A stretch of 64,000 nt of DNA, from contig JAHLJZ010000097.1 in the NCBI GenBank assembly GCA_025602915.1, positions 23,363 to 87,362 on the forward strand. Direction: 5' to 3'. Origin of the DNA: Paraphysoderma sedebokerense (taxonomy: Eukaryota > Blastocladiomycota > Physodermatomycetes > Physodermatales > Physodermataceae). Every line of letters begins with the position of its first letter. Positions within the stretch are counted from its first letter, which is position 1. Below, piece after piece: positions 4,410 through 62,311 of the stretch. The position numbers were made by a program, and so were the translations under genes. The notes under the pieces are model-generated. The model did not search any database. It was not told where the DNA came from and worked only from the letters and a program-made list of their open reading frames with translations.

Positions 4410-5252
<843 letters not shown>

Positions 5253-13964: not shown

Positions 13965-13995
13965 TTAGATTACCATTGTGGTATTATAAGTGAAC

Positions 13996-30526: not shown

Positions 30527-30643
30527 ACTAGTATATATAAGAATGTACTTTATTGAATAGGAGCGTCTAAATGTAGCAAGCATGTAATTGCCATCTTAAA
30601 ACACGCCGACATTATCTTCAACATCCACTTTTTGTCAACCTTT

Positions 30644-36004: not shown

Positions 36005-39000
36005 TCAGCCTCCAATCAAAGCCCTAGTGGAAGCAGTGACGAGCATGTTCTGACTTCCCTCTTTTTTGCTTTTACGCATCTCGTTTAGTCCAGCCCGAAC
36101 TTTCCGTTGAATTTCGTAAACAGAAGTACCAATCACAGCCGCTATAAACGCGAGCACAAGAAATAGCATGAAAAGCATAAGCACCAGTTCACTATTTCTT
36201 TGTAACTTATCGACATGGAATGGCAACGCGAGACCTAAAATTGACATTGATGCCATAGTGGAGGCGACCTCGAAATGGTTGAGAAGCGGATATTTATAGG
36301 GTTGATATTTAAGGTGGAGAACAAGCGACAGCAGCAACACAGTCTGGCTGAGAATGACTTGCAACCCTGGAAGCCTTTGGTATGAAATTTCAATGCAAAT
36401 GTTAGTATTTTAATAGGCCAAAGATGTCACCGAACTTTAAAATACAGACCTGGTAAAATACATGCTGGTAGATATCAACGCAAGCTTTTGGAACAGCTGA
36501 ATTAAGATAAAGTGCTGGTTTTCATCCTTGTAAATGTGGTCGAAATCCATGATCTTTGAAACAATCGCTCTCCTCTTCTCCCACCGTGAGGCATCATATT
36601 TCTTCTGATACATGACGAATAACATGATTGAAAAGTAAAGCGGAATTCCGATAACGTAAATAGCAATGCCGCTGAGAGCATACGGCAAGTCGCGGTACCA
36701 TTCTTCGCTGTAACACCTGACTGAATAATCTGCATCCAAATACATTAGGCCATCTTCTTCTAATGTGCAGTCAAGTATACTACTCGGAAAATGGAAATTA
36801 TGAGTCAGAGTCGGCAAAATTATCAGCACGAATGCAAACCTTAATGCCTTCGTACTGACTGTTGCAAATACGATCGATAGAATTGAATTAAAAATGCGGA
36901 GTGACGTTAGAAATAAGCTTGTCTGTTGGGGTTCGTGATTGTACAATTTTGGGCGAGACTTCTTGCATCTGGCGCGTATCTTTTTGTTGATGCTAACGAT
37001 CACACCAAACAAGATAACAAGCACTAACAAAGCTAATGGAATGGCGAGTGTGAACCGCATTTTTGTGCCGTAATCCAATCGCTGATTTATCACACATTCA
37101 GGACTCGTCAACTCGATATTAAAATTAATGAAGGATAGAGAGTTCAATATGTTCATAAATTCTGGCGGCCTACAGAGCAAAGAAGTTAACAAACTTGTTT
37201 CAGAAGCATGATTGCCGCTGATAGTCATCAATTTACCAATTCAGCTGCAACTCCCGTATGATGAGAATATATTGGATAAAGTTAATCAAAATGTTGACCA
37301 ATCCATAACTGAACGAATACGAAACGTTAACTATCACTTTTCGATGCTCGAAAAATATCTATAACGGTTACTCACTGTAAGCCTCTTCCAATAACCCTCA
37401 AAAAACCGATCATCGCGAGAGATCCAAAAAGGACGGACAGTACGATTAAAACAAGCTGCCATGAAGTTTCCTCTCGGCATAACACACAGCGGTTGTTTAA
37501 GCGATAATAATTTGCCGCACATGATCCGCAACCTAGAGAGAAGTTAATCCAATCGTTCGCTCAACGATCGATGTCACCAAAATATTACGTACGGTTGCCC
37601 GTATATCCAGCGGCACATTGGTTAATTCCACCCGGGCAAGATTCGGGTGGAAAGCATGGAAGGAATGTCGAACTGTTCTCGCTTTGCCAGTAGCCAAACC
37701 GTGGTCTGGGAGCAATACTGCCGTCTTGACTGTTGGTTTCAAAGTAATTGTTTATAAAATGCATATAAGAGCTAGGACATAATTGTGGAATTTACCTGCA
37801 TTCAGCTCCTATATCGTTCAAGAATTTGATAGAGGTTCAAGGAATGTTGTCAGTCAGGTCAACACAACCAAATGTTGTTAGAGAATAGAAATTTTACCCT
37901 CTAGACACGGAGCACAAATTGGACCCTTGCTAAAAATATTGCTGTATCTCCCTATCATGCAAATATGAAGGATAGGGGTCAGTGTTTTACGAAAAAAATT
38001 GCATCTGTAAGAAAATTATCTACATACCTGGTGGACAAGTTAATCTAAACACGAATGTACATATATCTGAAACTGCCCCACCATTGTCGAATGCATAAAT
38101 AGAGAAATTGCCAAAAGGAAACATGCTGCCGCTAAAATTCGGATAGAACATAATTGTTTGAGATCGGAAAATGCTACCAGCTACCAGCGGTACAGAATCA
38201 TTGAGATAACCTCTTGAGGGGGCTGTCACCAAAACAAATTGCAGCGAGGAATCATCGACATCTGCTGCATCCAGCTTAATCTGGTAGGAAGGATCTATAC
38301 CCAAGAGCACTTCAGGAGATAAGACTACCTCTTCAGGACAGTGAAGGATAGGTGGATCATTTACAGGGAGGACCGAGAATTCAATTCTTTGCAAGCGTGT
38401 CACAGTGCCGTCTGTGTAAGAGACAGTGAATTTTTGATCGCTTTGATTAAAACTACTATAAAAATCTGGAGTCGGAACAAAAAATATTTTGTACGGTGGT
38501 CCTGGGATTACGGAATCCTCGCCTATAACCAACAGACTTCGTGTCTCTGTCTGATTTTCGGTTCTCAGTAGCGTTCCATTGATATGGATATCTCTGATTT
38601 TAACCACTACAGTGTCAAGTGGATCTATATCGCTAATATTTAGGTATATGAGTGATTCTTGGTCTTCGTACGCAGTTATATTTTCGATTGATGTTAATTC
38701 AAACGTCGGAAGATCTAGTCGTAAAAATAATCAATTAGCCATCGTTAGTTCAATTTCGATGAAAATAGGATAGCATAAAAACCATTGACAGGCCGCACTA
38801 CAAATGTTATGGTGCCGTTAATCACACTGTCTAATAAACCATCACTGGCTTTAAAATTAAATGACGCATATGGATCGCCGAAGTCATTATCAATCGGTCG
38901 AAACAGTAACGTCGAATTGACCTGCGCCAGATCGTAGGGAGTAGTAGTGATTTGATCCCATGGTGTAGTAACATCGCCAGCATTTTGAATATACAACACT

Positions 39001-42000
39001 CCCCGTGTTGGAAGCGATAGAATAGAAAACATCATCATATTTTGCCCTGAAGATTGGTTGTCTGGATCAGTGGCAGTCAAGGTAAATGTAGTATTCGTGT
39101 CCTCCTCAAGAGATACGAGGGTCGATTGGGGTGCAGGAGGATCCGGTAATGGAATAATCGTAATTTGAATGCTTTGTATTATCGATTCTAGATGATGCCA
39201 ACGCAAATTGATTAAATGGTTGACCTATTATTTCAGCATATTGTTCAAAATAAGCTACCTGCTCCTAGGCCATCTCTGGCCTTGAATAAAAAAGAATCGG
39301 TTCCGTAAAAGTCGGGCTTTGGAACGTAAATCAATCGATCCATCGCATTTGTTACCAGAATTGCTTGTTCAAGCGTGGCATTAATTAATATCCCTCTATT
39401 ATCATTAAGAGTAGCTTGATATAGAAGCCCGTTTTCAGGTACAGAAACAATGAATAAGTCCAACATAGAGTTCTCGTCAGGGTCCAAAGCTTTGAGCTCA
39501 ATGATTAGGAATTGGTCTTCATAAGTTACGAGTGAAGACGCTAGAGCAAGAGGGGGGTTGTTTTGATTGAATGTATGAAATCTAGTGTTATCAGTCATAA
39601 TGCTGGATTGATTTCCGATTGTGACTGACACGTTGAAAGTAGACATGGGAAGAAGAGGCGTATTGCAAGCGAAGGTACTGCAAACCATTCAATGCTTTCG
39701 TCAGACAAGCAAAAATTAATCGGTCTCAAGTAATAGCATACCATTGCAATTCTTCATGTGATATTCCAGTAATGAGACAAGTAGAAGATTGAAGAGTATT
39801 CAAGTCGGTAAAGGACACCACAGCCCGGCTGATTAAGTTACCAAAATTGGTTCCCACCAGGGTAACAGTCTAAAAAGCGAGTCTAAGTCACATACCGCCC
39901 GCAACTTACAATCTTGATATTGACTAACTTACCGGTGTTTGGGAGAGGGAATATTGTGGATACACCGCCGCAACTCTTGGTGGAAAGTATGAATATACTA
40001 ATGAGCCTGTGCTATTCTGGCCTGCGACGTTAACTAATACAATGTTGTTGGCCCCGCTTCTGGCAGGAACAACGCATGTAGCATCGGTATCATTAAAAAA
40101 TGTTACTTGTTCACATTGTCGGTCGCCGATTTGAATGGAGGAATAGTTAAACACGCATGGAGATTCATTGCAAGGACCGAAATTTTTGCCGCTATAAGGG
40201 GTTCGGCAATCAGGCGACAATAATCATCATTATCATCGGAAGACAATACGTACCGTATTTTCAAGAGATTTCGTCCATTGGTTTGTCCACTGGTGGGTGT
40301 TACGTCGTAGAGCGATGGGGGTTCATAAGAAATCTTGATCGCCTCAGTTGTATTTGATTGTGGCCCGACCGAAACCGTCACCTGGATATCACGACCCACA
40401 CCTAATCATACTCGTTTAAACGAATTGATCAAAAAACATCATGAAGTCAAATTGTACAAACCTGGAGGCACTGAGCATTGGACTGCGGTTTGGTTCAGTC
40501 GAATGACGTCAGAGCACGGTTGGAACTCATATCCTAGGGTCACAACAACAGGATCCACCCCTGGAGAACCGAGATAATCAACAAGCAATGTAATGTTGAA
40601 GCCGGCTAGCATAAATAAATGGGGATTTAACATTACAGCATAACCGATACTCATTTGAGGGCCACTTACTGGTTGGTCCAACCCGAGGCTGAATATCTTT
40701 AAGGACTGGAACATACACTAATTGGGCCTTCTTTGTCGTTATACCTTCGATATCAGGATACTCAAATCGAACAATAAGGTCATAAGGTCCTTAATAGTAT
40801 TTGAAAGATCAGCTTTGTTATTAACTCCTCGTTTGTGTAGTCGTCCAGTTGGTGAAGAAAGGCTAAGTATACAAACCTCCAAATCCGGGTGGTATTCTCG
40901 CATTCAGAGACGATCCGTTCCATTGCACGTTGGAACATGGAATACCATGGAAGGTAACGTTGGGAATGCTATATAATCCACCAGGGAGAAATGAGAAGTT
41001 GATTTGAACAATTTCGTTCTCGAATGCTCTACCAGGCCCTTTAGATGTCAGGATATCAATATTAATGTATGCGTAGTATATAATGAACCATTCTCTTGGG
41101 TTTGTCGTTGACCACGGATTAGTAAAATCCCCATCAGTTGTGCCGATTAAGATAATATCTTTTCCTTTGGCAAATATCCGTGTGGCGTTATCTTGCTTTA
41201 CTGTTGTAATGACGAACCGAGATTGTAACGTCAAATTGGAATTGTATTCTGCTAGTATTATTTCGGTCTGTCCCAACCCGGTACTCGTACTATTAGATGT
41301 AACTGCAAGATTGATATGATTCGATGTCGATATGGCCAGGTCATAATTTGAATTATTGTAGGGAAAACTGAAGGATACTGGCAAAACCGATGAAAGAGTA
41401 TTATTATAACTTGAGTTAAATTTTTGAAGAACAAATTGATCGAGATATGCATTCGGATGAGCAAAAAATATACTGTCTCCAAGTTCATTTATGCCGAAAG
41501 CTGGCTGAAAATTTAAGGAGTCTAATGCTGAGCCCACTGAATATGTTTGAAGCAACCCGGTATTTGATAATTGATATACCCGGATCCTTTTAGATGCGGT
41601 CCAGATGCAAACAAGACTTGCATTTTGACGGCAACCGAACTCGACATGTAGGGCCTGCTCATCCGTTCTGGAAGCATGGAAAGCATGGTCCATATTGCTG
41701 CTCTTCATATTGGCAATGAAGAAGCCTTTATTCGGAGCGGATGCAGTTGGATTATTGTAGTGAACCACATAATTTGCCTGAGGGTCCGAGTAGAGTGAGA
41801 GCCGCCTTAAATATTTTTACCATTTACAAACACAATTATGATTTATGAATCGATAATGTCAATATATTAAATTAGAATATCAGCAATCCAAAAGATAATT
41901 ATGTTACTCACGGATTCTTGTATGGATTTTGAAAATATGGTTTTCCGTAAATGGGCCAATCATACAAAGTGCTACCTTGGACACCTGTATAAGGGACCTT

Positions 42001-42613
42001 GAATCTGTATACGTCCATCCTTGAGTTGGTTGAACTGTATGTACTGTTTTTAGATAAACAAAAATTGAGAAAGAAAACATAATGTTTTATTATCAAACTG
42101 TTTGCAAACAGTAGTTATCCCGAAGAGAAGATTGAATGGAGCCAAAGCATAAATTGGGTGACTTACGCCAAGTATACTCTATCATCGTATTTGTTATAGT
42201 GTAATGCGACTGCTTTATCGGACCTACATAAGGTTGTGTAAGAAACGATGAATAATGACTCTCAAGAATGTCGATATCCTTCACGTTTCCACTCACCTCC
42301 AAACAGCCCAGTCATTGCAGCATATACCACTACCGAGACTAGAGAGGTCATAATTTCCAAGCGTTCCCAATTCTCCCGTCGCGGATGCAACCGTGAAAAC
42401 GAAGAGACGAAATTGTTGGTCAAGCGCAAAAATATGTGACGAGTTGGAAATTACGTCAATTATAGGTTCTGAATGCGGAAAGTGTGTTTCGTACTTAGAG
42501 TGCCATGGGGGAATGGGGGTAGACACTACGCTGTTGATTCGAACGGTACAAAACGACAGTAACACAACCAGGCCGATGATTGGAACGAAGGTAAATTTGA
42601 CAAGGGCCGACAT
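36005..42613 (-). CDS. Giant multidomain membrane protein (receptor A): IPT/TIG, cadherin-like, Cys-rich, polytopic C-terminus
   Basis: About 18 exons on the minus strand from the start at 42613 to the stop at 36005, roughly 1,700 residues. Domains in order: signal peptide (FVPIIGLVVLLSFCTV), a propeller-like N-terminal region (42.6-40.9 kb; FALDQQFRLFVF, GICCNDWAVW, FHASRTDEQALHVEFGCRQ), several IPT/TIG repeats (40.9-39.7 kb; GKNFGPCNESPCVF, TVTLVGTNFGN), cadherin-like repeats with the VTYEDQ/EEDT motif (39.7-38.0 kb), a Cys-rich juxtamembrane part (GPICAPCLEG, GCGSCAANYYRL) and a C-terminal domain with about seven hydrophobic helices (VLIVLSVLFGSLAMIGFL, NILINFIQYILII, FAFVLIILPTL, IAIYVIGIPLYFSIML, VLLLSLVLHLKYQPYKYPLL). 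Many N-x-S/T sequons support an extracellular N-part. It is paralogous throughout to receptor B at 55.9 kb. A surface receptor, adhesin or channel is plausible; no family name is certain. Confidence 0.75.
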
Positions 42614-43789: not shown

Positions 43790-45862
43790 TCACAATTCAT
43801 CATCGGATACATGCATCATTTCGGAAGTTTGATTTGCATTTCTCCTTCGATCATTCGACGTCGTAACTCTGCTGAACCCTTCGACCGCATCATCTCGATG
43901 TTGGGTGTCAGCAGTTGTTGGGTTCAGATGAGTGTTTGAAGTTTTCATTAATGAACCAAACATGTCACCCCACATGACTATTTTCGCCCTCTCGTTCTTG
44001 GGTAACCCAGTCAACTCTTTTTGAAGTCGTTCCTCGTGGTTGGTTAACATTGCGTTTTCTTGTTCCTTGAATAACGTTTTTTTGTACGGGGAATGAGAGT
44101 GCGGGTTACCTGAGTAAGATTGCCAATCATTGCTATTGGAGTGACGGGAGGGTGAAGCGGAGAAGTTGGATGACGTCCGCACTGTGTCTTCGAATTCTTT
44201 GGGTAGTCGACGTAGGGAAGGGATAGTGTAGAGTGTGGAGAGGAGGGCAGAGTGGGTTTGCTGGAGATAATATAATGCTGTATTCGGTGAAGTAAATCCA
44301 GAGATGGTAGAGGCATGCAAAGGATGAGAAGAAGAAGACGCTGAAAAAGAAGAGAAAGTTGACCGATAAGGGTTATTGAGGATGACTGTTGGTGTACTGC
44401 CTACGATTTTCGTAATGTCTTGTGGCAAACCTAACGGTGACACTGAATCCAACGTTCCAGGAAGCAGAGTAGAACGACAAGAGGCGGAAGATACGTAGGA
44501 ATGGTATGACGGATGCAAAGCTACCAAAGCTGCTTCAAACTGGGAATATTTGTCAACAATTTTAGCCCATGTGTGAGCGTCTATCCAAGCCGTTACTGCC
44601 TTTTCCCTATTTCCCTCAATGTCATTATTTCCGGTCCGCACGGAATCACCCTTTTCAATCGGGAAGTCAGCTCGCGGAACTACCCTTTTCAGTCTTCGAA
44701 TCTTAACTTCAATGACCACCTTCACATCTGTGACAAAACGAGCCGTATCGATTCCGCCGGTTAGTTCTTTCACAAATTCTATTTGATATTCGTACAAATT
44801 GAAGCAAGATTCACAGATGGTGGGCTTTGGTTTCACTGAAGTTGAGGTTTTAGAGGGAGAGAAAAAGTTGGGCGAAGAGGGTACGAGCGGGAGGGACGAA
44901 GGGAAAAAGGGATGAGTCGTTGACGAAGGGTTATAGTGACACATAGAGCAGTATTTCTTTGAAATCTGTGATTTGTAGAATGTTTGACGGAGGAGGTCTG
45001 TTGTTGTTGGTGCTGCTGCAGTTTGAACAGATGTTTCGTTACTCTGGTTTGAAATCAACTCTGAACTGTTACATTGATTTGGATCGTGGTTATTGCTTGA
45101 AGACTGAATCGGCGAAGAAAACGGATTATGATCCATCGGTTTGATAGATGCAGATGCGATAGGAGCATACGATGAAGCTGCTGTAGAACTGAATGGTGAA
45201 TTTGGTAAAGATGAAGAGGATTTCAAGATATCCCGTGGTGCATTTTCGGGCATTGTAAAGGCAACTTTCGGTGCTTTCGATTCTTTCCCTGTGAATTGAG
45301 ATCCATCAATATCCCCAAACAATCGCCTCCTGCAACTTCGAACGCTTTTGGAAGGGGTATCAGTCAATTCGGTTGTAATTTCTGTATGACTTTTACGGGA
45401 AGATGACCGAGGGGTAATTTTAGTTGCATTTCCAGGAGTTTTGGAGGATTTAGACGACCGACGGAGTTCCAATGCTCCTGCATAAGGCGAAGTTCGGCAT
45501 CTCTTGATTTTTCTTTCGTCGTCTTCGTAAACATCGTGGCTTTGGCTGCCAGGACTTTGAAAGAGTTTAGTCTTTCTATTGGATTTTGGTGTAACGGATC
45601 CAGGTCCACACATGGATTTCCTTTTCCTCGGAGTTCTGTTCTTTCGGGGTGTACATAACTTAATCTGTTTTTTCTTGATGAAACTCTCAATATGATTGTT
45701 ACATAGGTGGTACAAGAGGGAGCAGGTTCTGGAGAGGTTGAACAATGATTTTGGGTCAAGATAAGGGAGAATAGACGAGATGAGGATTTCGGTAGGTAGA
45801 GTATTGAGGGACGGTATTAGATGGCTGTTTTGAAGGGAGGAAAATGAGGAATCGGACGACAT
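43790..45862 (-). CDS. F-box protein with zinc-ribbon-like CxxC pairs
   Basis: A single exon of 690 residues, unusual here where most genes have introns. The F-box is near the N-terminus: LPTEILISSILPYLDPKSLF then LSRTCSLLYHLC (residues about 21-55). It is followed by a basic, Ser/Pro-rich region (CTPRKNRTPRKRKS) with many possible phosphosites. At about residues 300-350 two cysteine pairs (YCSMCHYN and TICESCFNLYEY) could bind zinc, with a domain of about 100 residues after them. The C-terminal half is Ser-rich with a coiled segment (NHEERLQKELTGLPKNERAK). F-box proteins recruit substrates to SCF ubiquitin ligases via SKP1; the substrate here is unknown. Confidence 0.8.
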   Translation of the reverse strand: MSSDSSFSSLQNSHLIPSLNTLPTEILISSILPYLDPKSLFNLSRTCSLLYHLCNNHIESFIKKKQIKLCTPRKNRTPRKRKSMCGPGSVTPKSNRKTKLFQSPGSQSHDVYEDDERKIKRCRTSPYAGALELRRSSKSSKTPGNATKITPRSSSRKSHTEITTELTDTPSKSVRSCRRRLFGDIDGSQFTGKESKAPKVAFTMPENAPRDILKSSSSLPNSPFSSTAASSYAPIASASIKPMDHNPFSSPIQSSSNNHDPNQCNSSELISNQSNETSVQTAAAPTTTDLLRQTFYKSQISKKYCSMCHYNPSSTTHPFFPSSLPLVPSSPNFFSPSKTSTSVKPKPTICESCFNLYEYQIEFVKELTGGIDTARFVTDVKVVIEVKIRRLKRVVPRADFPIEKGDSVRTGNNDIEGNREKAVTAWIDAHTWAKIVDKYSQFEAALVALHPSYHSYVSSASCRSTLLPGTLDSVSPLGLPQDITKIVGSTPTVILNNPYRSTFSSFSASSSSHPLHASTISGFTSPNTALYYLQQTHSALLSTLYTIPSLRRLPKEFEDTVRTSSNFSASPSRHSNSNDWQSYSGNPHSHSPYKKTLFKEQENAMLTNHEERLQKELTGLPKNERAKIVMWGDMFGSLMKTSNTHLNPTTADTQHRDDAVEGFSRVTTSNDRRRNANQTSEMMHVSDDEL

Positions 45863-47399
45863 TGCGGAAACACACGGCAGGACAGCGAATGAAGGTGGGT
45901 GCTGAGATGCAAAGCGGATATGGTGTAGATTTGTCTAATGCCTTCTGAAAGCGAGTTAGACAGATGCAGATAGCATATTTTCAGAGTTGATACAGCAGAT
46001 GCGATGATACTCACTTTGCAGAGTGTATTTCAGATTTCAATTTTCGACCGCATACAGCGCATACAGACTGGTCCAAAATGACGCCCAAAATTGTCTTGCT
46101 TGTTTCACTTCTCTACGCGTCTGTGCGCGCTCCACTCGGTCTGCGACTCTGCGTGCTTTCGCGTTTCTTAATCTTCACCGACTCACTTGATCGTTAGATG
46201 TCAACCCTCACCAATTCTTTTGGCCAGCAGATCCTGTAGTACATCCAATAACTAACTACTTGTCATAGTTTAAAATAATCAGTATCCAGGAATAAAGCCG
46301 CGGATCCAATTTCGAATGAAAACAAATGTACTATCTATATTGTATCCTTCTTCCGTATATTTTGATTACAACCCTGATTCCTGTAACATCCACTCACTAA
46401 TATTTTGGAAGTCTAAATCCCCTCGACACCGTTGCCTTCTTTGAATCATCTCCTGCGAAGAAATGTTTTGTCGTCGTTATTTATCTATAGAGGTATTTAT
46501 TTGCTAGTAGTATTCCACTATAATCGCACAGGGAGGAGCGCAATAAAAACAATCTTGATGGTATGTATTGATAAAACATATTTACAAAATCATGACAAAC
46601 AGCAGAAATTAAACCTTTCACCACATAATGGGAGTACAAACTTAATCAGATATATCCAAAAACTACTATAGCTACACACATCAACATTTTAGCAGCCTGG
46701 ACCTTCCTGACTTTCCCTACCCCTTCCTCGGGGCTCGACATTGGTGGTTCGCCTATATAGTGTCATATTCTTCGGAATTTCTGGGCTCTCGCCTCTCAGT
46801 CCAGGTAGAAATTGAGGATATTCCAGGCTGTTTAAGAAACTTAGGCCCGCTGAGATCAATATGTTTATTACTGGTTCCTGGCCGAACAGGGGAAAAAAAA
46901 AATCCCTCGGATTCTACAAATTTGTGAACTGTTGTGAGGTTGATTGACGAATTCAATCCTACACCCGCATGAGAGTGCTGCTGACTCCAATTATGTTGTC
47001 ATTTAGTATTTACACTATAGTAGCTACTACCAACATCCAACTTGCTAGGGTTTATGCACGCGTCAAGTTGACGAACAAGAGAAGTATCTGTATATAATTC
47101 TATTCGGTATAAGGGTTTTGATCGTAGAGGGAGTCTGTCGTAGAATAATCTAAAAGGCGGTATTATTTGAAAAGGAAAAAGTTATGTAATCTGTCGCCGG
47201 TCGCGTGAATGAGTGAGTGACTCAGCGAGAGAGGTCATTGAGTAATGTTATACATAAATGATATTGTTCAAGTTCACTTCATTCTTAAGTGTTTTTTTGT
47301 ACACTAACAACGACCACGTTACGGGGATATATCAACAATACAGTTCTTTTTTCTTTTATAATCTAATTGTATCAAAACATCCAATTAAAATTTCTGACG
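45863..47399. other. Intergenic region, no gene recognised
   Basis: About 1.5 kb upstream of the F-box gene and downstream of the integrase-like gene. It is A+T-rich with short frames (46432-46671, 46753-46956) lacking domains. The left end should hold the F-box promoter. Confidence 0.4.
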
Positions 47400-48916
47400 T
47401 TACTCATAATCGTCATCGCTGCTACTGAAATCACTGCGATCACTTTTCTCCAACAATGTTTCTAACTGATCCACATCGAATTTTTCGAATCCCTTCAACA
47501 AAACATGATAAACTTTCCAAACCTCTACTAAATTCATTCTACCAGTATTGACACTTTTTCCGTACGTTTCGATTAATATCCTGTTACACTCACCCGCGAA
47601 TAACCTGTGCCAAGGTTCCAGTTCCCTTCGACACCGAACCCTCAAATTAGATAACTCTCTTGTAATAGATTTTTTGTCGTCTTTGGTGAGGGGGATTAAC
47701 ATTTCGTTGCCACCGTGTCGTTCGGGGAAATGGTAAATGTCGAAGGGGGTACAGCCGGTGGGGAGTGGTGATTTGGGTTGACGTTTGAGGTATCGGTTGT
47801 TGGCCATTTCGAGGGCTGCGTCGAGACGGGATTGAAGGTAGGGTAAGAATACGAAGAGGAAGGTTTGGCTATGAATGGAAATTTGAATTAAAAAAAGTGA
47901 AAAGTGAGACCAGATGGAGAGAAAGTATCGCGACGTAATAATAAAGGAAACGAGGAAATGAGTGGTTACCGTTCCAAATCATCGTTTGGATTATAATCTC
48001 TTATCACCTCCACATGACTTTTAATATTATCGTATACACCATTCAAATCATTTTCTAACCTCCTCCACCAGTTATACCCTACCGCCGGGTTACGGATTGA
48101 ACCGACATAAACGTGACTCTCGAATTCACCGCACGAATCATTATCGTCATCGGCATCGTTATTGTCCCGTCTTTTGGTTAAATTGTCGAATAATTTTCGT
48201 TGCCATTTCGCGGCAGATTCATTCTGATCTCCGCAGTTACTCATCGTGATTTGTGGGATACCTGTGAATTCAGAATTGTGATCACCCAAACCGATAATTC
48301 ATAAATTAATAATTCATTCAACTCCAAATTTCTAAGTCCAAAAAATTAATTTTAGAAAATGATGGGGTACCTTTTAATTTTATCACCGTCTCCAAATAAT
48401 AAGTCGCAATCAGATCAGGACTGTCATTCGTGACTCCGACGTTCAACCAATGCAGATATTTTGAATATAAATCCATTCCGCCATGAATGGCTAGTAATAG
48501 TAAGGTAAATCGAACCCAAAAACATATAAGAAATACTTGTTAGTACGGTGAAAAAAACCACAGGAGGAGGTGAAGTAAAGTTTGAATGTTGTAGAAGTTG
48601 TTTTATATTTGATTTTACCTATCCCGTATCGAAGAAACTTGTCGCACCCGTCAAAACAAAGGATATCGTTCGGACCCAAGGGTACCAACGGGCGGTCTTG
48701 GTTCTCCATTTTTCGTACTTTTTCTATTTCTATCTCTTTTTGAAGTAAATCCAACCGATCAAAAACAATGGAAAGGAAACCCCTTTTTGGGGATTTTTCC
48801 GAAAACGAGTGTAGACGAGTGAGGTGGTGGAAAGTAGAGGATTTTTGAAGGTGAGACTTGAGGATCGGTGGGATTGGGATAGACTGGGATGTTGTTTTTT
48901 CGGGGGCCTTGGTAGG
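47400..48916 (-). CDS. Integrase-core (RNase H fold)-derived protein, probably domesticated, 5' end uncertain
   Basis: Exons: (48916 or later)-48619, 48490-48371, 48261-47970 and 47868-47400; phases fit. An ATG at 48709 is the first in frame, but coding-like sequence in the same frame continues to about 48916, just after a splice-acceptor-like TAG, so an upstream exon is likely. The core reads DILCFDGCDKFLRYG, then IHGGMDLYSKYLHWL, GIPQITMSNCGDQNE, VYVGSIRNPAVGYNWWRRLE, FLFVFLPYLQSRLDAALEM and YLKRQPKSPLPTGCTPFDI. It is collinear with the integrase-type proteins that carry IHGG-D-YSR, RSD-G-EN and R-x-E-R-x-W blocks. The first Asp is kept, but the second is Asn (SNCG) and the third acidic residue is missing, so strand transfer is unlikely. 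It has an acidic Asp/Asn insertion and an acidic tail (SSSDDDYE). No terminal repeats are seen around it. Confidence 0.7.
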
Positions 48917-49583
48917 CTACTAGGCTTTCCGCCTTGGTTCACACTTTCATGACTTTGAAAGGTCTTGGCGAAAAAAATCTGAAAACTGGGAAATGAAATT
49001 TTTTTACGCGTTTTCTATTCGGACTATATATATATAGTAGGTTTTGTTTAGATCTTTATTACATTATTTTGTTTAGCTGGATTGAATAGTTTCTGAATAG
49101 CTTGTACAGGTATGCATGGGTTGTCGACTTATCAGTCGTGGTTTGGATTGACAGTGAGAATGAATGAAACTGGTTTGGACTTTGGAGAACTAGCGGTTCG
49201 TGGAGCAAGATTACAAGTACATCTATTCTGTATAGTCTGTGTTTGCTATACCTATTATACTCAATTTTTGAGTTTACATCCACGAACCGTGGGATGATCA
49301 GTGGTGGTTTGTGAGTGCGGATATGAGGGGTTTCGCTGGGTGTCACGTGGAAGACGGTTGCCGGAGTGTCGATCCGATCGATCCCAGTGGTGCAGCTGAG
49401 TGTGGATGACAATTTGAGGATTTGACATTTGCAGGGAGTAATCAGTAAAGGAGGTGAGTGGATGCATTCCTTGGATAAGTCGATGCGTTTGTGACACTCG
49501 CTGACTGGATTATCCCAAAGGAGTTGAACAGTTATTCACTCAATTTTCTCTATTTTCATACCCATCTGCCCGCTCCAATCTCC
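48917..49583. promoter_or_regulatory. Divergent intergenic region before the SDR gene
   Basis: About 670 bp between the integrase-like gene (-) and the SDR gene (+). It includes an alternating TA palindrome at about 49023-49038 (ACTATATATATATAGT) that could act as a TATA-like or cruciform element. No gene is supported. Confidence 0.4.
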
Positions 49584-50777
49584 ATGTCTGTCGCTATCGT
49601 CACAGGTGGTGGACGTGGACTCGGTTCCGCCCTCGTTTCCACACTTTTACAAAAAACCTCACTCAATGTCATCGCCACGGCTCGATCTCCCGACACCGCA
49701 ACCACCCATTTAAATTCCTACTTACGAACACAAAAGGTTTCTCCCCAATCCATCCAATCCCGACTTACCGTTCTTCCCTTGGATTTGTCGTCTCCGGGGA
49801 GTATCGTTGATGTATCCAAGGAAATCAGAAAACGGTATGGAGAAGGAAGCGTGAAACTGTTGGTGAATAATTCTGGGATGTTGGAACCAGAGAAAACGGT
49901 CAAAGGGTTGAGTTATGATCGGTTTTTGGAAACGGTTAAAGTGAATACGATTGGTCCCATCATGTTGGTTGGGGAATTGGTGAGAGAGAATTTGTTGAAT
50001 GTTAAGAAAGGAAGTGGGGGTGGACAAGGTGGTGCTGGTGGGTGGAAAGACGATGTTGCGGCTGTGATTGCGAATATCTCTGCCAGAACGGGGAGTATCG
50101 GTGATAACCGATTGGGTAAATTTGGCTAGTTTTTTCTTCAGATCTTTGCTGGCTTTTCTGTTTGGAATTTGGTTCTGTTTTGTTTTATTGAATTTATGTT
50201 TCCCTGTGTATTTTGTGGCTCATTTTCTATTTCCATCATCTGTGGGTTCAACAATCAAACATAGGAGGCTGGTACTCGTACCGATGCTCGAAAGCAGGTT
50301 TGAATCAAGGGACCAAGACACTTGGATTAGAGTTGGGGAGGAAGGGGATTGTGGTGGTCAGTTTACATCCTGGAACTGTGAAAACAGAGATGAGTGCCCC
50401 CTTTCAGGGCAACGTTCCCCCCGGTAAATTATTTGAAAAAGAGAAATCGGCAGGGTATGTATAACTATTGTGTATTGTGTTTTTAGGTATTGAGAATGGA
50501 ATGGCGGTGGAATTTCTTTTTTCTTTCGCCTGGGCTGGAGTTTGAGTTTCCACGCCGTTATCTTTTTGTGTTTTTTACATGACAATAGGCAAGTGATGGC
50601 AAAATAGATGGCGACTGACACTGCAGCATTTTGCGGTATTTTTTTTCATTTTTCTTCATCTGGCCTGATCTGGCTCAATGATTTTAATTTAGGCACTTGT
50701 ATGATGTGATATTGGGGCTAGGGGAGAAGGACAATGGCAAGTTTTACGATTACGCGGGCAAGGAGGTTGTGTGGTGA
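49584..50777 (+). CDS. Short-chain dehydrogenase/reductase (C-factor/sniffer-like)
   Basis: Three exons: 49584-50115, 50265-50454 and 50693-50777, giving 268 residues, the classical SDR length. It has the cofactor motif VTGGGRGLG near the N-terminus (NADP-type with a following ATARS), a D-L-S motif (LPLDLSS), LVNNSG, the active-site Ser in ISARTGSIGDN, and Tyr/Lys in YSYRCSKAGLN split from the Ser by the first intron. LHPGTVKTEM and the C-terminal YDYAGKEVVW resemble the C-factor/sniffer (carbonyl reductase-like) subgroup. It is a cytosolic NAD(P)H-dependent oxidoreductase; the substrate is unknown. Confidence 0.88.
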
Positions 50778-51248: not shown

Positions 51249-54200
51249 ATGGCGTCGCAGTACCCGCCTCCGCACCCACACAGACCCCCTCCCCCCTCTG
51301 GCCCTCCTCCTCCAAACCAACCCCCTCCCCCCCTCACCCCCTCCGCCGCTCAAATCCCCCAATCCATCCCCCCTCCCGGTCAAGGGCCCCCTCCCCCGCA
51401 CTCGCTCACTCCACACCCCCATCTCACCTCAAGACTCGCAGAGCTCCTCGATGCAGTCAAACAAGAAGTCGAAAATATACTCAACGACGCTCACGGTCAG
51501 AAACTACAGAGAGACGATTTGGAAATAAAGAGTACATTGTCCTTTTTCTCTACTTCTTCCTCCTTTACTGCAATGTTTGAGCTCCCGGGCGAAAACTGAA
51601 ATTATGAATGCTGCTCCGCTCCCTCCCCATCATCATCCATCAACACGCTCCCTACGTCCATCCACCCTCTTGATTACACTTTGTTTGATTCGAGATTCGG
51701 ATGCGGAGGACCACGATGATGCAGCAGCAATGACTCCAAGCACCACCCTGTTCGGTTCTCGGCGGCAGTTTGTGTACACATGATTTTTGAAAACTAACAA
51801 TGAATTTATGTGTTATCTTGTTTTTGTTGACTATTTCATTTGTGTTGACATCATTTCGTTCCTCCCTCTCGGAATCCAACGTAATGTTATATCCAATTCT
51901 TGACATCCCACCTGACCCTCAGTTCAACAACAAATCGCCGAAATGAACGACATGCAGCAACACGTATACGACTTGCAGAGAACTCATATGAGGATAAAAG
52001 CCAGGTAACCGTGTGAACGATAAATACCTTGAAACTGATCCCCGGGAGGAATACTTTGGAGACTGACTTGAATGCCACTTCTCTTTTCTTTGTTGTCCGT
52101 GTCCCCATGTTCGCTTGTGACCTCTCCTACTCAGTTACGATGACGAAATCCGTGCCTTACAGTCAGAGTTAAGCCGTTACCGGTCGTCAAACCCGAACGC
52201 ACCCCCTCCACAAACTCCCACCAGCGCACATCCGCCTCCACCTTCTTTGCCAGCTCCTAATATGAGTCAATCCATGTTTGCAAACTCTAATTTGCCGCAA
52301 GGTAGCCTTTGTTTTCCTATCAAGTTTAAATTTTGACCTAGAAAAAGTTGGATGACAATTCCTCTATTTGCTATTGAAAAGGTTCAATGATGGGAGGTCC
52401 ACCAAAGCGAGGGAGACCGGAGGATGCGATGAATCCGTACGCTGGCGGACAACCTCAAGGGAGGCCGGGTCCAAATTCGATGCCTCCAAATGGACCTCCA
52501 CCTCCTCATTCTCAGCACCAACGTCCTCCTCCATCTTCCATGTCCCATCCTCATCCCCCTCCATACGGACATCCGTCTCAACATGCACAACAGCAGCAGC
52601 ATCCACACCAGCGATATCCCAACCAAGGACCCGTTCCATCGGGACCAGGCCATCAGCAAATGCCTCCTCAACAGTCTCGAATGGGTCCTGGCGGTCCCCC
52701 TCCCGGTCCGGGAGGTCCACCACCACATCATATGCAACCCTCTACCCCCATGAGTCAAAATCCAACTCAATCAGTATCGTACCAATCCGGAAACGGCGCG
52801 GTATCTCAACCGATTGAAGTGTTGGGTTTGGTGGTCGATAATTTGGATCATATCCCTTCTGGATACAAAAAAGAAGGATCTTCGTGGTTTGCTGTGTATG
52901 TCAATCATTTATGTCATATTAGGGTTCTCCCACAAAAGCACCCGTCTCACTGTTTCTATCCCACCTTTAGCTATAACCCTAGTATTCCCCGTGAACTCAA
53001 CGTGGATCTGGCACACAATCTTAAGCACGCTTCGGTTGTCTGCTCTGTTAAATTTTCCCCAGATGGTCAATATGTCGCCACTGGATGCAATCGATGTGCG
53101 GTAGTATGGTCCGTCCAGACTGGAGCCAAGGTGGCCACGTTGAATGACATGACTGATAAAGACGGCGACTTTTATATTCGAACTGTTTGCTTCACACCAG
53201 ATAGTAAATTGCTGGCAACCGGTGGTGAAGTAATTGTGGTACGTATCGGCGTCATAAGTTGATGTTCACTCTCTGTTGAATTGGACCCAGAGTAACGCCG
53301 TTCGACCAAATGATTGTTCTAGTTATGGGATTACACCACTTCAACAGCCATACGAACATTTATGGGGCACGAATCAGACATCTATTCTATTGATTTCTCA
53401 CTCAACGGACGATACCTTGTCTCTGGTTCCGGGGACCGAACAGCCCGAGTATGGGATGTAGAATCCGGAGAATGTTTATTTAAATTTGATCACAACGAAT
53501 ACGCCAAAGTGGACGCCGGTGTCACCAGTGTTTGCTTCCATCCTGATTCGAGGGTACTCGTCACAGGCAGTCTGGACAAAATTGTTCGAGTATTTGACGT
53601 CGTTACCGGAAAGTTGTTGGAGAGATTGGAAGGCCATAAAGATAGTGTTTATAGTGTCGTGTTTAGTCCTGATGGTATGGTTTGAGTTTTGTTGCAAGTG
53701 GCGAATAGCATACAATCGTCGTTAACCAATCCTGTCTGCGGACTGTAGGTAAACAAATTGCCTCCGGATCTCTCGACAAGACTGTCAGAATTTGGGACGT
53801 TGCTAATTACTTGCCGGACAATAACAGTAATAATTTGATTATTGACAGGAAGAGTAGCTGCAGAATGGTTCTCAAAGGACATAAGGTTCGTTTCCTCAAT
53901 AGAATTTATTGGTCATGTAATGGTCGAGTTAATTTCTCGTGTGATTTATTTTTTCGAATGCAGGATTTTGTTCTCTCTGTTGCGTTTTCTCCTGATGGAC
54001 TGTGGATCGTATCAGGATCCAAAGATCGAGGCGTACAATTTTGGGATGCACGAACAGGTCAAACTCAGTTTGTATTGCAAGGACATCGAAACAGTGGTAT
54101 GTTTTCCAATTCAGTTTTCATTCTGTTTCGTGCTCAATTAAGTGTGGGACAATATTTTAATAATTTTCGTTATAGTTATTTCTGTCTCAATATCACCACA

Positions 54201-54741
54201 ACACATGTACTTTGCTACCGGGTCTGGTGATCAAAAAGCACGAATCTGGAAGTATACTTCTATCCACCAACAAGCAATTGAACATCATCCTCCACCACAA
54301 TCCACCCACCCAGCCCAAATCACCTCTTCTAATCAAAACCATCAATACACCAACGGAAACGACAAAACCAAATCTCCAACCGAGAAAATCTCCCCAATCT
54401 CCGCGGGACGCGCATCTAGCAAATCACCGAGTGACGCTTCTGCCCCTAGACAATCGTCTCCGGCTGCTAACCCGGTTTCAGGTTCAGCTTCGGTATCCTC
54501 GGCGTCCACGTCGAACCAAATCTCAAACCTCACGACACCGGCTCAAGATGACGCTGAAAAGGATAAAGAAGATGGAGAATTGAGTAAACTCGAGAGTATG
54601 AATGACGAGTTACAGAGTACCGTATCCAACAAGAGCAATGAAATCGATAATGAAGTAAGCTCCAAGGGAAGCGGAAATGGTAATGGGGGTGAAGCCGAAG
54701 AAGAAGGTGAAGAAACTGAAGATGTCGTGATGGAGGGTTAA
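51249..54741 (+). CDS. TUP1: Transcriptional corepressor TUP1
   Basis: Nine exons: 51249-51531, 51923-52004, 52135-52301, 52382-52895, 52971-53238, 53323-53674, 53749-53885, 53964-54096 and 54176-54741, giving 833 residues. A Pro-rich start is followed by the tetramerisation helix ([17 protein letters not shown], then [18 protein letters not shown]), a long Pro/Gln/His/Gly linker and seven WD40 blades. The blade entry is [18 protein letters not shown]; later motifs include [50 protein letters not shown] and [15 protein letters not shown]1 with CYC8/SSN6 represses many fungal genes through sequence-specific factors and histone tails. The C-terminus has an added about 170-residue Ser/Gln-rich tail ending in an acidic run ([11 protein letters not shown]), not present in yeast TUP1. 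The linker coding at 51280-51420 and 52440-52740 is highly repetitive. Confidence 0.95.
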
Positions 54742-55925: not shown

Positions 55926-58900
55926 ATGAATTCAATACTATTATTTATTATTTTACTCGTTTACTGTTCCTTCTTTACACCCGTTACCACGACCCCGGTT
56001 TTATCCGGCGTGACTACACCATGGTACCTCAAAACTCGATACACAATCCCCGCAGTCTCAAATACTAGTACCCTCGTTGACGTCGTCAATAATTCGACGC
56101 ATTTGTTTGTTCTTGATGATTGGTTTAGATTGTATTTTTTTAAGATATTGACACAAGGACAGACAGGACAGACAGGACAGTTGGAGTTGGTGGGGCAGTA
56201 CGATATCGCGGGATGGATTGGGGATGATGTTTGTTGTGGGAATTGGTTTACCTCGAGAAATGATAAAGTTGCGGTGTTGAGTTATAACCCTTTTAATGAT
56301 TGTTTATATTTAACGTAAGTCTATTCACCAAATTTTTTTTCTTTTGGGTTATTACTATGATTATTACTGAGATTTTCTTTCGCGTTTTTTTAGAAAATAT
56401 ACACCGGTTGGAAGTCTACGGTTGGAAGTGTTTCAGTTTCAGGTACCGTATACCGGTGTGATTCGCTATAATGGGTACGACTGGGGTTGGTGGGGTGTAC
56501 CTTATTATCAAGTCGCTTATAGCAACCCGTAAGTTTATCATTCATGTTTTTGAACTGGTTAACGTTGTTTGAGTCGTTTTTGGAAATGATGAAATGATGG
56601 ATTACACTGACTTACCCCGACTTTGGGGAATATGATTTCGTAGTCGTTTGTTGGTGCAGATAGAACCCAGAGACATGTTTTTCGCTCATTACAATGAACC
56701 AACGGAAACGTCGCCGCAAAATGGATTTTTTATCGGTAGAATGAACCATGATTTTTCGCATTACGCCGAAGTATTCCGAACGGATGAACAAGCGGTTTAT
56801 ATCGAATTTAAATGTAGATGGGGTCAATATATCTGTGTTTGGACTGATTCTCAGAAAATATACGTTTACGAACCGTTGTATTTGACTTTAATCGAAACTG
56901 TTTCCGCTCCGAGTATTTCCACCGCGTTCAGTTTTGACCCAAAAATCGTTCGACACGCCAATGATGTTCGATTTTATGGTGCTCGAAAACCAACCGATTG
57001 GAAGACATTCTCAGTCGGTAAATTTGATTCCACGTATTCAGTATTAGCGGCGGCTGAGTTACCGTATATTTTTGAGTTTCCTTATAATGGGACAAATTAC
57101 GATATGAAAAGTACTTTGGCCGGTCGTTTAATCGTTGGAATGACGACAAATGCTTCCGTTGGACTTGGGGATACAGATATCGTTGTAGCCAGATTTGACG
57201 GCGATTTGAAATTGAACTCGAGATTGATGTTTTCAACTGTCAAGCAAGATAATCTTTCTGCTATTGCTGTCCAGAATGAAGCTGATTTAATCTTAATCGG
57301 GACCACGGACGGCAACGTTTCCGACCCGTTACAAACTGACCAACAAAGACAATTGTTCCTTTCTTATTATGCTTATTTGGTTATTACAAACGTTACGTCG
57401 TCAAAGCCGAATGGTGTGGTTTGGGGGGACGTGATAGAGATTTCGTTTGAATCGTTACCCGTTGAAGCATTCTCGGCGTACCCATTGGTAACGTTTCATG
57501 AACAAGCTTGTACGGATGTTTCTTGGACTGGACAAAAATTGCTAGCCACCATTCCATCCGGTGTCGGAGGTAACATTTTGGATGTTTTCTTCATGATTTA
57601 TAGCAATGTTACTAATCAACCACATTTATAGGGCCTTACATTCTTTTTGTTGATTTTCAACACCTACAGTACAGTAATGACTCTTCGAGCACCATTTTCT
57701 GGTTATCTTATGTTCCTGTGATTCGGGATATACAACCAACAGAAGGTCCATCTGGTAAGTTAAAAACCACTTGAACGAATACTGTTGCGTCTGATACTGA
57801 TTTTTGTTTTCTCCAGTCGGATTTGAAATTATCATTCAAGCAGATTACCTTGGAACTCCGGAGATAGATCCACTAGAAGTCACCATTGGTAAAACTAAAT
57901 GTTTGAATATAGTTCAATTGAACGAAACAACTATTAGCTGCAATGTCCCACAAGGTTGAGAAAGTTTCTGCTCCGTCGAACGCAAAGGGATTGTTAACTA
58001 ATTATTCTTCTAACCTTATGAAGGCGTCGGGCGTAATCATGGGGTAACGATATCATTAGGCCCAACATCGAACAGTACAGAGCCGTTCGTTGTCTCTTAT
58101 GAACCTCCAACTGTGTTTGATATTATGCCAATAAACGGCAGTACAAAAGGCGAAAATACAATTGAAATCATGTAAGTCTGAGATTTAATCGGCGTTATTT
58201 TTTGTCGTACACGTTGACTAAACAGGTAATGGATAGGGGCAAAAATTTCGGATTTTGCCAATCTTCCCCATGCGATTCGAGTCAACATAATGTTACCGTT
58301 CAGATTGGAAGTCAACCATGCAGCTCCGTATTACTGTACAACGACAGTTATGTGACTTGTACCGCACCATTGGGAAGTGGAGCGAATCAAACCGTCAGTG
58401 TTGTAGTTGCAGGCCAGATTAGCATGGACGCTGTAAGATATTCTTACAATCCACCTGAAATCACTTCCATTCTTCCGCCTTTTCTCGTTTCTGCTAACCC
58501 TGTATGTATATTCTGTCTTTTTCCCCAATGTACGGAGCTATATTCATTGTTTTCTCTCATAGACTGTCTTCATTGACGGAGCGAATTTTGGGAATTCTTC
58601 AGATACACGTTCGGTGATATTCACTGATACAAGTAGTGCGCGAAAATAACACATGTCCTTCTCTCATATGGTTATCACAAGAAAGATTGCGATGGTAACA
58701 TCATCCATATTGGTTGCATTTGAGTTTTGATTTTGACCTTTGTTGGCATCTACAGTAATTTTAGCACGACCAGTCTACCGCTTCTGTCAACTTTTAACAT
58801 TTCAGTTATTGTCACTGCTCAAAGTAGCCTGCCATCCTCTACTGCGCAGTTTTTCACTTTTACGCCCAATAAGAACCCGATTGCTATGCCTTACAATACT

Positions 58901-61900
58901 ACGACCTACGAAGATCAGTTTATCACAATTGAGTTGACAGCCACCGACCCTGATGTCGGGGATACCATTCAATTATTTATTGTGTCGATGCCAAGTAATG
59001 GCACTTTGTACCAGGTTACTTCAACCGACACCAAAGGGGCGTTAGTCAATACAACATTTGGTCGTGTCGCGCTCACAAATTCTCAGAATAAGATTATGTA
59101 TACTCCAGACCAAGATTTTTTTGGCATTGACTCGTTCAATTTCATAGCCCAAGATAGTCAAAACGCAGACTCGTTGACCCAGACAGCTACTATAACCCTC
59201 CTACCACTGGATGATCCCCCCAAGGTCCAAAATATGGTTGTCATGCTTGACGAGGACACCAATACTTCGTTCGTCCTTCCAGTGGTTGACCCTGACACCC
59301 CTGGTTTAACTTCAAGCATTCAGTTGACAATATTATCCCTCCCGAGTAAAGGAAACTTATATATTCAGAATACGGCTAATCAAACCTTTGATTTGATTGA
59401 AGCTATTCCATATGTGTTGGAGGTGAGCAATCGAACTGTGATGTTCAGTCCAAACGTTAATGCATTCGGCAACCCATATACCACATTTACCTTTAAGGCT
59501 AATGATGGAACTTCGGACTCAATAATCAATGCAACCGTAACGCTAGTGGTCAATCCTGTGAATGGTATGTATGATATTGTCTGTGACGTTTGTCTTGAGA
59601 TAACGGGGACTAAATTCTTTGATTCAGATGCTCCAATCTTCAATACAACTTTGGTTCAAAATCTCACCGTATACGAAGATACCGATGTGATTATACCGCT
59701 TGATATCACTGATGTCGATATTTCAGATACATTGGTTGTTAAGATTACCAATATTCGCCTTAATGGAACTCTATTCCGGGTCGATAGGTCAACTGGCTCA
59801 CGCACTTCGCAGACGGTTGGAGAAGGAAGTGAAATACCCGGACCGCCATACCAATTATATTTCGTCCCGGCCCGTAATTATTACACGCGATCCTCAGATC
59901 TTGATCAGAGGTTTAATGTTACCTACAGCGATGGCAAAGTAACTTTCTCCAAAAGCATCGAGTTTGCAGTACTTCCAGTAAACGATCCACCCTCCTTGGT
60001 TTGCACCAGCAACGTATTATTGCCTTCAGATGTGTTGGTTGGGATTAGCTCCTTCCATTTTATTCAATTACAGGCTTCTGATGTAGATGATTTGAATCTG
60101 GAGTATCATCTACTTGCTGCCCCAGAGAAAGGTTACCTTAACGCTAGTGTCCCACTAACGTCTGGCAGTATATTCACGACAACCAATCTTACATTCTATC
60201 CTAATGACACTGGAGGGGCGTATCCTTACGGAAATTTCACAGTCTTCGCAAAAGACAAAAATGGGGGAATTTCAAACCATTGTACCTTCTCGTTTCGATT
60301 CAGTTGTCCGCCAGGTGAGCTAGAAGAAACTATATTTTAAAGGGCTAATAGTCGCTAATATATAAATTGCCTTAACTAGCAAAATATAATAATATCTACA
60401 GTAATGGTACCGGCCCCATTTGTGCAGCTTGCTTAGACGGTGAGTAATTGTAGCGACGGTGTTCTATATGCGTAATACATTCCTTGATCATGCTGATTTA
60501 CAACATTCATTTCAATTCAATGCTCCATAGGCGCCGACTGCAGGTGTGATTCTTATATTTTTTTCCCGCTTTAGTTATCTATGTCCTAATTGATTCATTA
60601 ATAGCCAAGATGGAAGTATCCCACCGAGACCTCGCTATGGTTACTGGCAGAGTAGCATTTCCACTTTCCTTCCATGCTTCCCAGCCGAAGCATGCACAGG
60701 TGGAGAGAATCGTTGCGCGACCGGATACTCCGGCGATCGTGAGTATATTGCGAGCCTTTCCATTTCGTTCGTTCAATCATTAACTACCATTATTTGAAGG
60801 GTGTGGATCGTGTGCAAACAAATATTATCGGCTAAATAATGCGTGCAATCCATGCCCTGATGATCGTACCACTCGAATAGTGGTCATTGTGATTTGCTTA
60901 TTGATCGGTACCTTAATGATGTTCGGCGTGATGAGACTTGTTGGGAAAGGTCCTAAGTATGTAGATAATTGCGAGATCTCATCAGTTCAATTACTGACAA
61001 TTTTTAACAGTTACGGTCTTGCGAACATTTTAATTAACTTCATACAGTATATTCTTATATTGAGAGAGCTACGATTGAACTGGTTGGTTCTCAGATTACC
61101 TGAGAAGGGTTGACATTCTCTAACTATCTCATTTCCCAGGCCACCAGAGTTTCACATTATATTAAACGCGATTTCATTCATAAACTTTAACATTGAATTA
61201 ACAAGCCCGGAGTGTCTCTTAGAAACCGATTTGAACTATGGAATGAAAATGAAGTTAACGTTGGCAATTCCAATTGTCCTTGCTGCTGACCTATTTCTCT
61301 TCCGACTCATCGGTGTAATGTATTCTAATATCAAGAAATGCTTTGGCCAACCTGCTGGGAGTCTTGTTATTCGAAAATCAAACGACCCAAAGAAAACTAG
61401 TGCGTTTTTGGTCGCTGTTCGCGTCTACAACTCTTTACTTTCGATTGTTTTCGCAACCGTCACGACGAAGGCCCTAGGGTAAATAGTTTATTTAATACTT
61501 TTCTAACTTCTAAACTAATTTTAGAACTACTAGTCTGTTTGATTGTACTCTCGAGGACGATGGATTCTACTACCTTGATGCAGACAATTCGGTCAAATGC
61601 TATACCGACGATTGGTACAAAGAAGTTCCTTACGCTATAGCGGGAATTATGGTTTATGTCGTCGGAATTCCGCTTTACTTTTCAATTATGCTATATCTAT
61701 TATATCAAAAAAAGAATGACGGTCTGAAGTGGAAGAATGCTAAAAAAGTTGTATCCAACGTCATGGATTATGATCGTATCTATAAGGAGGAACAACAGAC
61801 ATTCGTCGTTGTTCAACTGTTCCAGAAGTTATCTCTCATTGTCATTAGCATGTTTTTCACACGGTAACCTACATACATCTAGTTCCACATTTTTGGAAGG

Positions 61901-62311
61901 AATCTGATATCTTTTCTTATATTTTATATTAGGCACACGGGACTTCAAGTAGTTCTCACCCAGACAGTACTTCTCATTTCGCTGATGCTTTACCTTAAAT
62001 ATAAACCGTACAATTATCCCATCCTTAATATCCTCGAAATAAGTTCCGCTGTATGCAGTGTCTTGGTACTCGGTTTAGGGCTTCCATTTCACGTGGATAG
62101 GGCTAAAATTTCAGGTCAAACTGGATTGATTATTGCTATGTTGTTTTTGATTTTCGCATTTATTTTTGCAGTAATATGTGCTTCTGTTTATGAAATCCAA
62201 AGCAAAGTGAGGGAGAGAGTGAAATCGTTTCGAGTTATGAAAAGAAACGGAGATGAGAATAATTACGAAAACGGGGGACGTAATAACAGAATGTCGGAGA
62301 TATTATTATGA
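55926..62311 (+). CDS. Giant multidomain membrane protein (receptor B), paralogue of receptor A
   Basis: About 19 exons: 55926-56314, 56394-56528, 56644-57569, 57632-57754, 57817-57954, 58024-58171, 58237-58501, 58563-58632 and 58682-58694 (uncertain), 58756-59564, 59628-60314, 60380-60439, 60531-60543, 60605-60738, 60800-60956, 61011-61082, 61140-61478, 61525-61863 and 61933-62311. This gives about 1,731 residues. Architecture matches receptor A: signal peptide (ILLFIILLVYCSFF), propeller-like region (FVLDDWFRLYFF, CCGNWFTSRNDKVAVL), IPT/TIG repeats (VPVIRDIQPTEGPSV), cadherin-like repeats (TTTYEDQFITIEL, MLDEDTNTSFVL, LTVYEDTDV), a Cys-rich part (GPICAACLDG, CGSCANKYYRL, CNPCPDDRT) and a C-terminal polytopic domain (IVVIVICLLIGTLMMFG, NILINFIQYILIL, VVGIPLYFSIMLYLLY, LYLKYKPYNYPIL). 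It ends in a short basic, Asn-rich cytoplasmic tail. Sequon-rich ectodomain. Ligand and function unknown. Confidence 0.75.

Follow-up and report, generated by a model that had tools for sequence, protein, structure and literature searches.

Among described proteins, the closest parallels to the products of the genes analysed here are the cysteine repeat modular proteins (CRMPs) found in apicomplexans and ciliates, which lie at the cell surface with the N-terminus outside and the C-terminus in the cytoplasm and are assigned a role in contact-triggered exocytosis (PMC9670195). In the available sections of the two papers on which this comparison draws, rhoptry secretion in Toxoplasma is stated to require CRMPs, a screen in Tetrahymena led to their being named conserved exocytosis regulators (PMC9670195), and both apicomplexan paralogues are required for secretion on host contact (PMC9815656, PMC9670195). 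The "conserved core" is defined there as a pair of EGF-like domains together with the transmembrane (TM) domains, nine in number, and an A/B heterodimer is predicted; predictions from Dictyostelium are noted to resemble CRMPs in their nine helices, and CRMPs are termed apicomplexan-specific (PMC9815656). Here we describe two genes, A and B, in a stretch of Paraphysoderma sedebokerense DNA (contig JAHLJZ010000097.1; 64,000 bases, 41% GC, no N; hereafter the window). They encode large membrane proteins that may be a pair of cell-surface contact receptors working as CRMPs do, perhaps as a heterodimer, a reading that we favour tentatively and place somewhat below an even chance. The proposed likeness is one of manner of working, and membership of the CRMP family is not claimed.

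Models of both genes were built with a splice-aware gene finder and a homology bonus, each model being guided by the paralogue (Table 1). The start ATG of each gene was set by hand, and so, by reference to the paralogue, were two introns (A 36839-36780 and B 59565-59627); the B intron was also recovered by the gene finder without homology help. Comparison of stop-to-stop frames, region against region, by tblastn gave colinear blocks running from about 42.6 to 36.0 kb on the minus strand and from 55.9 to 62.3 kb on the plus strand, rows from 49.0-49.5 kb being left out because that stretch was common to both inputs. A single blastp alignment joined residues 12-1719 of A to residues 4-1705 of B (46% identity, E = 0.0, 1563 bits), and a control with reversed B reached at most 23.9 bits. 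Identity amounted to 804 of 1,680 aligned residues (48%), or 809 of 1,675 in a second alignment. Sixteen of the 19 A introns agree exactly with B in position and phase (two of these 16 involve hand-set introns), one is 1 nt off at the damaged B exon discussed below, and two, after A residues 105 and 881, have no counterpart in B. The introns of both genes are 46-132 nt long, start with GT and carry branch and acceptor signals of the fungal type. An earlier note on this DNA, made from the letters alone, had proposed two divergently oriented full-length paralogues at this span, sharing most intron positions and derived by duplication and inversion. The tblastn blocks, spliced models and single blastp alignment bear this out, and, given the full-length homology and the shared introns, a duplication that left one copy inverted is well supported as the simple reading. 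The flanks of A and B (about 1.2-2 kb each side) share no match longer than 16 nt, and no third copy was found within the window, where the sole match outside the pair had E = 0.28. Relatives were not found in the viral and prokaryotic contig collections scanned, a result that says nothing on spread among eukaryotes.

Both proteins have the same order of parts: a signal peptide, an N-terminal region, TIG-type domains, cadherin-like/bacterial-Ig repeats, a collar with 12 Cys, nine hydrophobic segments and a short basic tail. TIG, Cadherin_4, Big_9 and Ig_SibA were all above their Pfam cut-offs in both A and B. When scanned alone, the second TIG piece of B gave 40.8 bits, and its last cadherin-type repeat gave nothing above cut-off. 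A TIG tandem is also found in MET and plexins, and phmmer matched MET chain 5lsp_A to residues 592-748 of A (E = 0.0003). Unlike those proteins, however, A and B have a polytopic core and gave no Pfam match to sema, PSI, kinase or plexin cytoplasmic domains at E<=1, nor did the N-terminal regions scanned alone match sema at E<=10. The N-terminal 400 or so residues of A, scanned alone, yielded no supported Pfam match, and the same region of B gave just M157_N_1 (E = 0.027) and Beta-prop_RIC1_2nd (E = 0.18; 11.6 bits against a cut-off of 150); no PHROGs family was matched at E<=0.01. When the main N-terminal exon was modelled with AlphaFold from an alignment of A and B, the prediction was strand-rich and of low confidence (predicted local distance difference test (pLDDT) score 37.4, predicted template modelling (pTM) score 0.29). 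Since this prediction failed, a propeller in the N-terminal region stays a guess.

All 12 collar Cys of A were matched in B by alignment. On the collar, DUF7630 scored 18.8 bits in A and 15.6 bits in B against a cut-off of 27 bits, with nearly the whole of the 45-position model covered, and EGF_laminin likewise stayed below its curated cut-off in both (E = 0.16 in A; Table 1 for B). Neither model was matched by any of ten collar shuffles in which the Cys were held fixed. DUF7630 proteins resemble A and B in the collar, but the match lies below cut-off and the model comes without a function. No paper on DUF7630 was found in a literature search, and a search with the model in a lambda record and 14 control genomes returned nothing and is uninformative.

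Hydropathy analysis of the C-terminal part gave nine segments above threshold, placed alike in the two proteins. The lowest values were 1.36 for helix 2 of B and, in A, 1.38 for helix 6 and 1.47 for helix 8, the counterparts in the other paralogue all reaching 1.67 or more; three further peaks in the B ectodomain (1.34-1.46) have no partner in A and were left uncounted. With three segments weak in one paralogue, though stronger in the other, the count of nine is a prediction, on firmer ground than it would have from a single protein. Lys and Arg make up 28 of 121 residues in the predicted inner loops of A and 14 of 131 in its outer loops, with 27 of 121 and 14 of 140, respectively, in B, the outer counts taking in 30 residues before helix 1. 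This charge bias and the signal-like start fit a predicted topology with the ectodomain outside and the tail in the cytoplasm. In the outer loops, one Cys in loop 2 and two in loop 4 are matched between A and B. No Pfam family reached its cut-off on either core, and NCBIfam gave no family at E<=0.01 on collar plus core. Pfam matches to DUF3084 (A, E = 0.012), DUF2339 (B, E = 0.0054) and TRP (B, E = 0.27) were rejected as chance-level because reversed cores reach E = 0.007 (Claudin_2) and E = 0.031 (DUF6594). Profile searches of the core against the PDB returned just a "Major capsid protein P5" chain (E = 0.47 and 0.069), which was also taken as chance. Among the matches listed in a literature search, there was no fungal protein of this layout. 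Of the common architecture set out in the earlier note, the signal-peptide-like start and the TIG, cadherin-like and Cys-rich segments are therefore confirmed by hydropathy and Pfam scans; its propeller-like region (with no Beta-prop match in A) and its seven or so helices are not supported by these analyses, which gave an unassigned N-terminal region and nine predicted segments. Its statement that no named fungal receptor fits agrees with the segment-wise family and PDB searches, which place the C-terminus in no known family.

Conservation between the paralogues is uneven along their length, with 38.9% identity in the N-terminal region, 44.3% in the TIG part, 49.1% in the cadherin-like part, 64.6% in the Cys-rich collar and 57.8% in the membrane core. 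These values have the pattern expected of a conserved core carrying a faster-diverging recognition part. In the five regions counted, third codon positions differ at 63-67% and second positions at 16-36%, the pattern that purifying selection leaves.

The contact-receptor reading starts from features shown at the sequence level, namely that A and B are paralogues with a common order of domains, nine hydrophobic segments, conserved Cys and charge bias. On this model, the signal peptide would take A and B into the secretory route, the long adhesive ectodomain would be displayed on the Cys-rich collar, and the nine-helix core would hold the protein in the membrane with the basic tail facing the cytoplasm. 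The faster-diverging outer part might then bind a surface or another cell, and binding might be passed via the collar to the conserved core. A and B may pair via that core, as predicted for CRMPA and CRMPB, and the response triggered could be, for example, secretion or zoospore encystment. Apicomplexan and ciliate CRMPs offer the best parallel because, as far as the available sections describe them, they combine a large variable ectodomain, an EGF-like or Cys-rich collar by the membrane, two paralogues and an N-out/C-in arrangement (PMC9815656, PMC9670195). The apicomplexan CRMPs also share with A and B, as predicted by hydropathy, nine C-terminal helices.

Several observations weigh on the other side. 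Tetrahymena CRMPs are predicted to have five TM (PMC9670195), against nine in A and B. The ectodomain modules given in the available text of PMC9815656 are EGF, ephrin-receptor-like, kringle, lectin, furin-like, beta-helix and putative Ig-like He_PIG; TIG and cadherin-like domains, both present in A and B, are not among them by name. The likeness to the CRMP core is one of description, and nine helices with a Cys-rich collar could have arisen by convergence. In addition, the EGF_laminin and DUF7630 matches, besides being below curated cut-offs, did not come up at E<=1 when the full-length proteins were scanned, and three segments of the nine are weak in one or the other paralogue. Conservation is poor in the cytoplasmic tail (9 of 26 residues identical), which gives no shared signalling motif. 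Finally, B could be other than intact, given a frame interruption in its fourth TIG domain. The B exon at 58563-58694 at first keeps the reading of A, then meets a stop, and then continues the reading of A in another frame. The B model bypasses the interruption by a 131-nt splice (58506-58636), which costs the fourth TIG domain about 25 residues. The interruption may reflect a sequence error, a genuine altered splice or a real lesion.

The stronger proposal, in which A and B each supply one half of a heterodimeric contact sensor of the CRMP type, at work in a zoosporic fungus, we consider doubtful. If it were true, a receptor type called apicomplexan-specific (PMC9815656) would extend, unexpectedly, into fungi. 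The rhoptry-firing machine of apicomplexans would in that case represent an ancient device of eukaryotes for secretion triggered by contact, which fungal zoospores would use for attachment and encystment, with exchangeable modules (here TIG and cadherin-like) on a conserved nine-helix core. To our knowledge, surface sensing and encystment by chytrid-type zoospores are molecularly unexplained, and a duplicated receptor pair that joins adhesive ectodomains to a CRMP-like core would provide two defined genes with which to approach that question.

It is unlikely that A and B are instead a heterophilic adhesion pair whose TIG domains recognise the partner on another cell, with the core mainly an anchor. 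Such an arrangement would agree with a divergent pair of TIG-bearing paralogues whose N-terminal parts diverge most, and it has a precedent in Dictyostelium TgrB1/TgrC1, described in the available parts of the sources as paired diverging genes for TIG-containing surface proteins with adhesive function and a common promoter of 523 bp (PMC5288501, PMC12324515). The starts of A and B, in contrast, lie 13.3 kb apart with other genes between them, so no promoter is common to the two. Tgr proteins are also single-pass, whereas A and B have nine segments, and a core more conserved than the ectodomain would be costly for an anchor.

The frame interruption bears on another reading, which we regard as distinctly unlikely, in which A and B are passive wall or surface adhesins without signalling and B has been decaying since the duplication. 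The single interruption in the fourth TIG exon would suit decay, and the bacterial-type cadherin/Ig repeats, which are common adhesin modules, would suit adhesins. Differences between A and B are nevertheless biased to third positions in all five regions, and the core is conserved above the ectodomain. That the B model is open throughout is a weak sign of an intact gene, since the gene finder avoids stops by construction; the matching exon borders are a better one.

Less credible again is an adhesion receptor of the G protein-coupled receptor (GPCR) type, with the large ectodomain coupled to G proteins. An adhesive ectodomain on a polytopic C-terminus is common to A, B and the TIG-bearing adhesion GPCRs of the choanoflagellate Salpingoeca rosetta, as given in the available part of PMC3251606, and CRMPa has itself been termed GPCR-like (PMC9670195). 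However, neither A nor B has a 7tm or GPS/GAIN match in Pfam at E<=1, the collar-and-core profile matched no GPCR in the PDB at E<=10, and nine rather than seven segments were found in both paralogues, three of them weak in one. Least likely of the alternatives is kinship with the fungal TRP-like (Flc/Pkd2-type) membrane proteins of ion or lipid handling, which likewise combine a luminal domain with nine or so TM, because the PF06011 TRP match over the last four segments of full-length B (11.4 bits, E = 0.14) falls short of the 28.5-bit cut-off, has no counterpart in A and is equalled or bettered by matches of the reversed control cores to other families, and no ML-like domain was matched at E<=1. 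The CRMP-like contact-receptor reading thus remains the one that we prefer.

Table 1. Features of genes A and B and of the genes between them; positions are those of the window.
Feature	Position	Strand	Details
Gene A	36005..42613	minus	20 exons, 1,732 aa; spliced model, homology to B
Gene A exons 1-10	42613-42297, 42223-42167, 42034-41912, 41805-40877, 40789-40670, 40605-40462, 40401-40254, 40191-39933, 39869-39742, 39677-39259	minus	
Gene A exons 11-20	39187-38783, 38714-38028, 37951-37898, 37808-37796, 37729-37593, 37532-37376, 37308-37237, 37169-36840, 36779-36450, 36374-36005	minus	
A signal-peptide-like start	42527..42613	minus	hydrophobic aa 4-22, mean 2.34
A N-terminal region	41031..42526	minus	161/414 residues identical to B, signal peptide counted in
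A, four TIG-type domains	39566..41030	minus	Pfam TIG 21.6, 26.6, 42.1, 21.6 bits (4/4 pieces); cut-off 20.9
A, about four cadherin-like/bacterial-Ig repeats	38062..39565	minus	piece 1 Big_9 36.7 bits and piece 2 Cadherin_4 27.1 bits, above cut-off; pieces 3 and 4 below
A Cys-rich collar	37468..38061	minus	12 Cys; DUF7630 E = 0.0018, below cut-off
A nine-segment membrane core (predicted)	36131..37455	minus	hydropathy, charge bias
A basic tail, predicted cytoplasmic	36008..36130	minus	41 aa; stop codon follows
F-box-like gene	43790..45862	minus	PF12937 2.9e-07 on open frame 43790-45934; start is first Met of frame
Weak gene model, no Pfam domain	46753..48244	minus	
Short-chain dehydrogenase, approximate model	49532..50681	plus	PF00106 4.8e-18
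Tup1-type WD40 repressor with Tup_N	51249..54741	plus	Tup_N E = 1.5e-14
Gene B	55926..62311	plus	18 exons in model, 1,721 aa; splices 58506-58636 round interrupted exon
B signal-peptide-like start	55926..55994	plus	hydrophobic aa 4-22, mean 2.22
B N-terminal region	55995..57415	plus	Pfam scan, hydropathy
B TIG-type region	57416..58864	plus	TIG 2 and 3 from Pfam, TIG 1 and 4 from homology to A; TIG 4 interrupted
B exon matching A 39869-39742	58563-58694	plus	132 nt against 128 nt; stop in matching frame and frame change
B cadherin-like/bacterial-Ig repeats	58865..60280	plus	whole protein: Cadherin_4 61.5 bits, Big_9 43.1 bits
B Cys-rich collar	60281..60864	plus	12 Cys; EGF_laminin E = 0.0053, DUF7630 E = 0.019, below cut-offs
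B nine-segment membrane core (predicted)	60877..62182	plus	hydropathy, charge bias
B basic tail, predicted cytoplasmic	62183..62308	plus	42 aa; stop codon follows

The genes between A and B were modelled one per chosen interval, and the four unrelated genes expected there were recovered, two on the minus strand (an F-box-like gene and a weak model) and two on the plus strand (for a short-chain dehydrogenase and a Tup1-type repressor; Table 1). Against the PDB, the Tup1-type protein matched 1erj, which we take to be the TUP1 structure from yeast, with E = 2.2e-64 (rank 7 among the best 60 of 248 distinct sequences at E<=1e-30). At 28675-30744 on the plus strand lies a homologue of dynein-2 intermediate chain 2/WDR34, with just two PDB sequences at E<=0.001, both at about 3e-16; such a gene suggests that the organism probably makes ciliated cells, a point in favour of the contact-receptor reading, and the Tup1 and dynein-2 genes taken together point to a ciliated fungus. 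About 650 bases past the end of B, the C-terminal dimerisation region of a hAT-type transposase was found on the minus strand (62960-64000; PF05699 2.2e-10). Elsewhere in the window, the minus strand carries an open frame matching the BRCC36 C-terminal helical domain (2752-3369; PF18110 7.8e-07), ubiquitin fused to ribosomal protein S27a (4410-5553), recognised by eye in the sequence of the model, and a gene model with a match to RNA polymerase III Rpc34 over its first 180 residues (12528-15195; PF05158 2.1e-33). An adenylate-kinase-type enzyme was also seen, and overlapping long open frames on both strands at 6335-7190 coincide with a low-complexity stretch rich in Gly, Ala and Pro.

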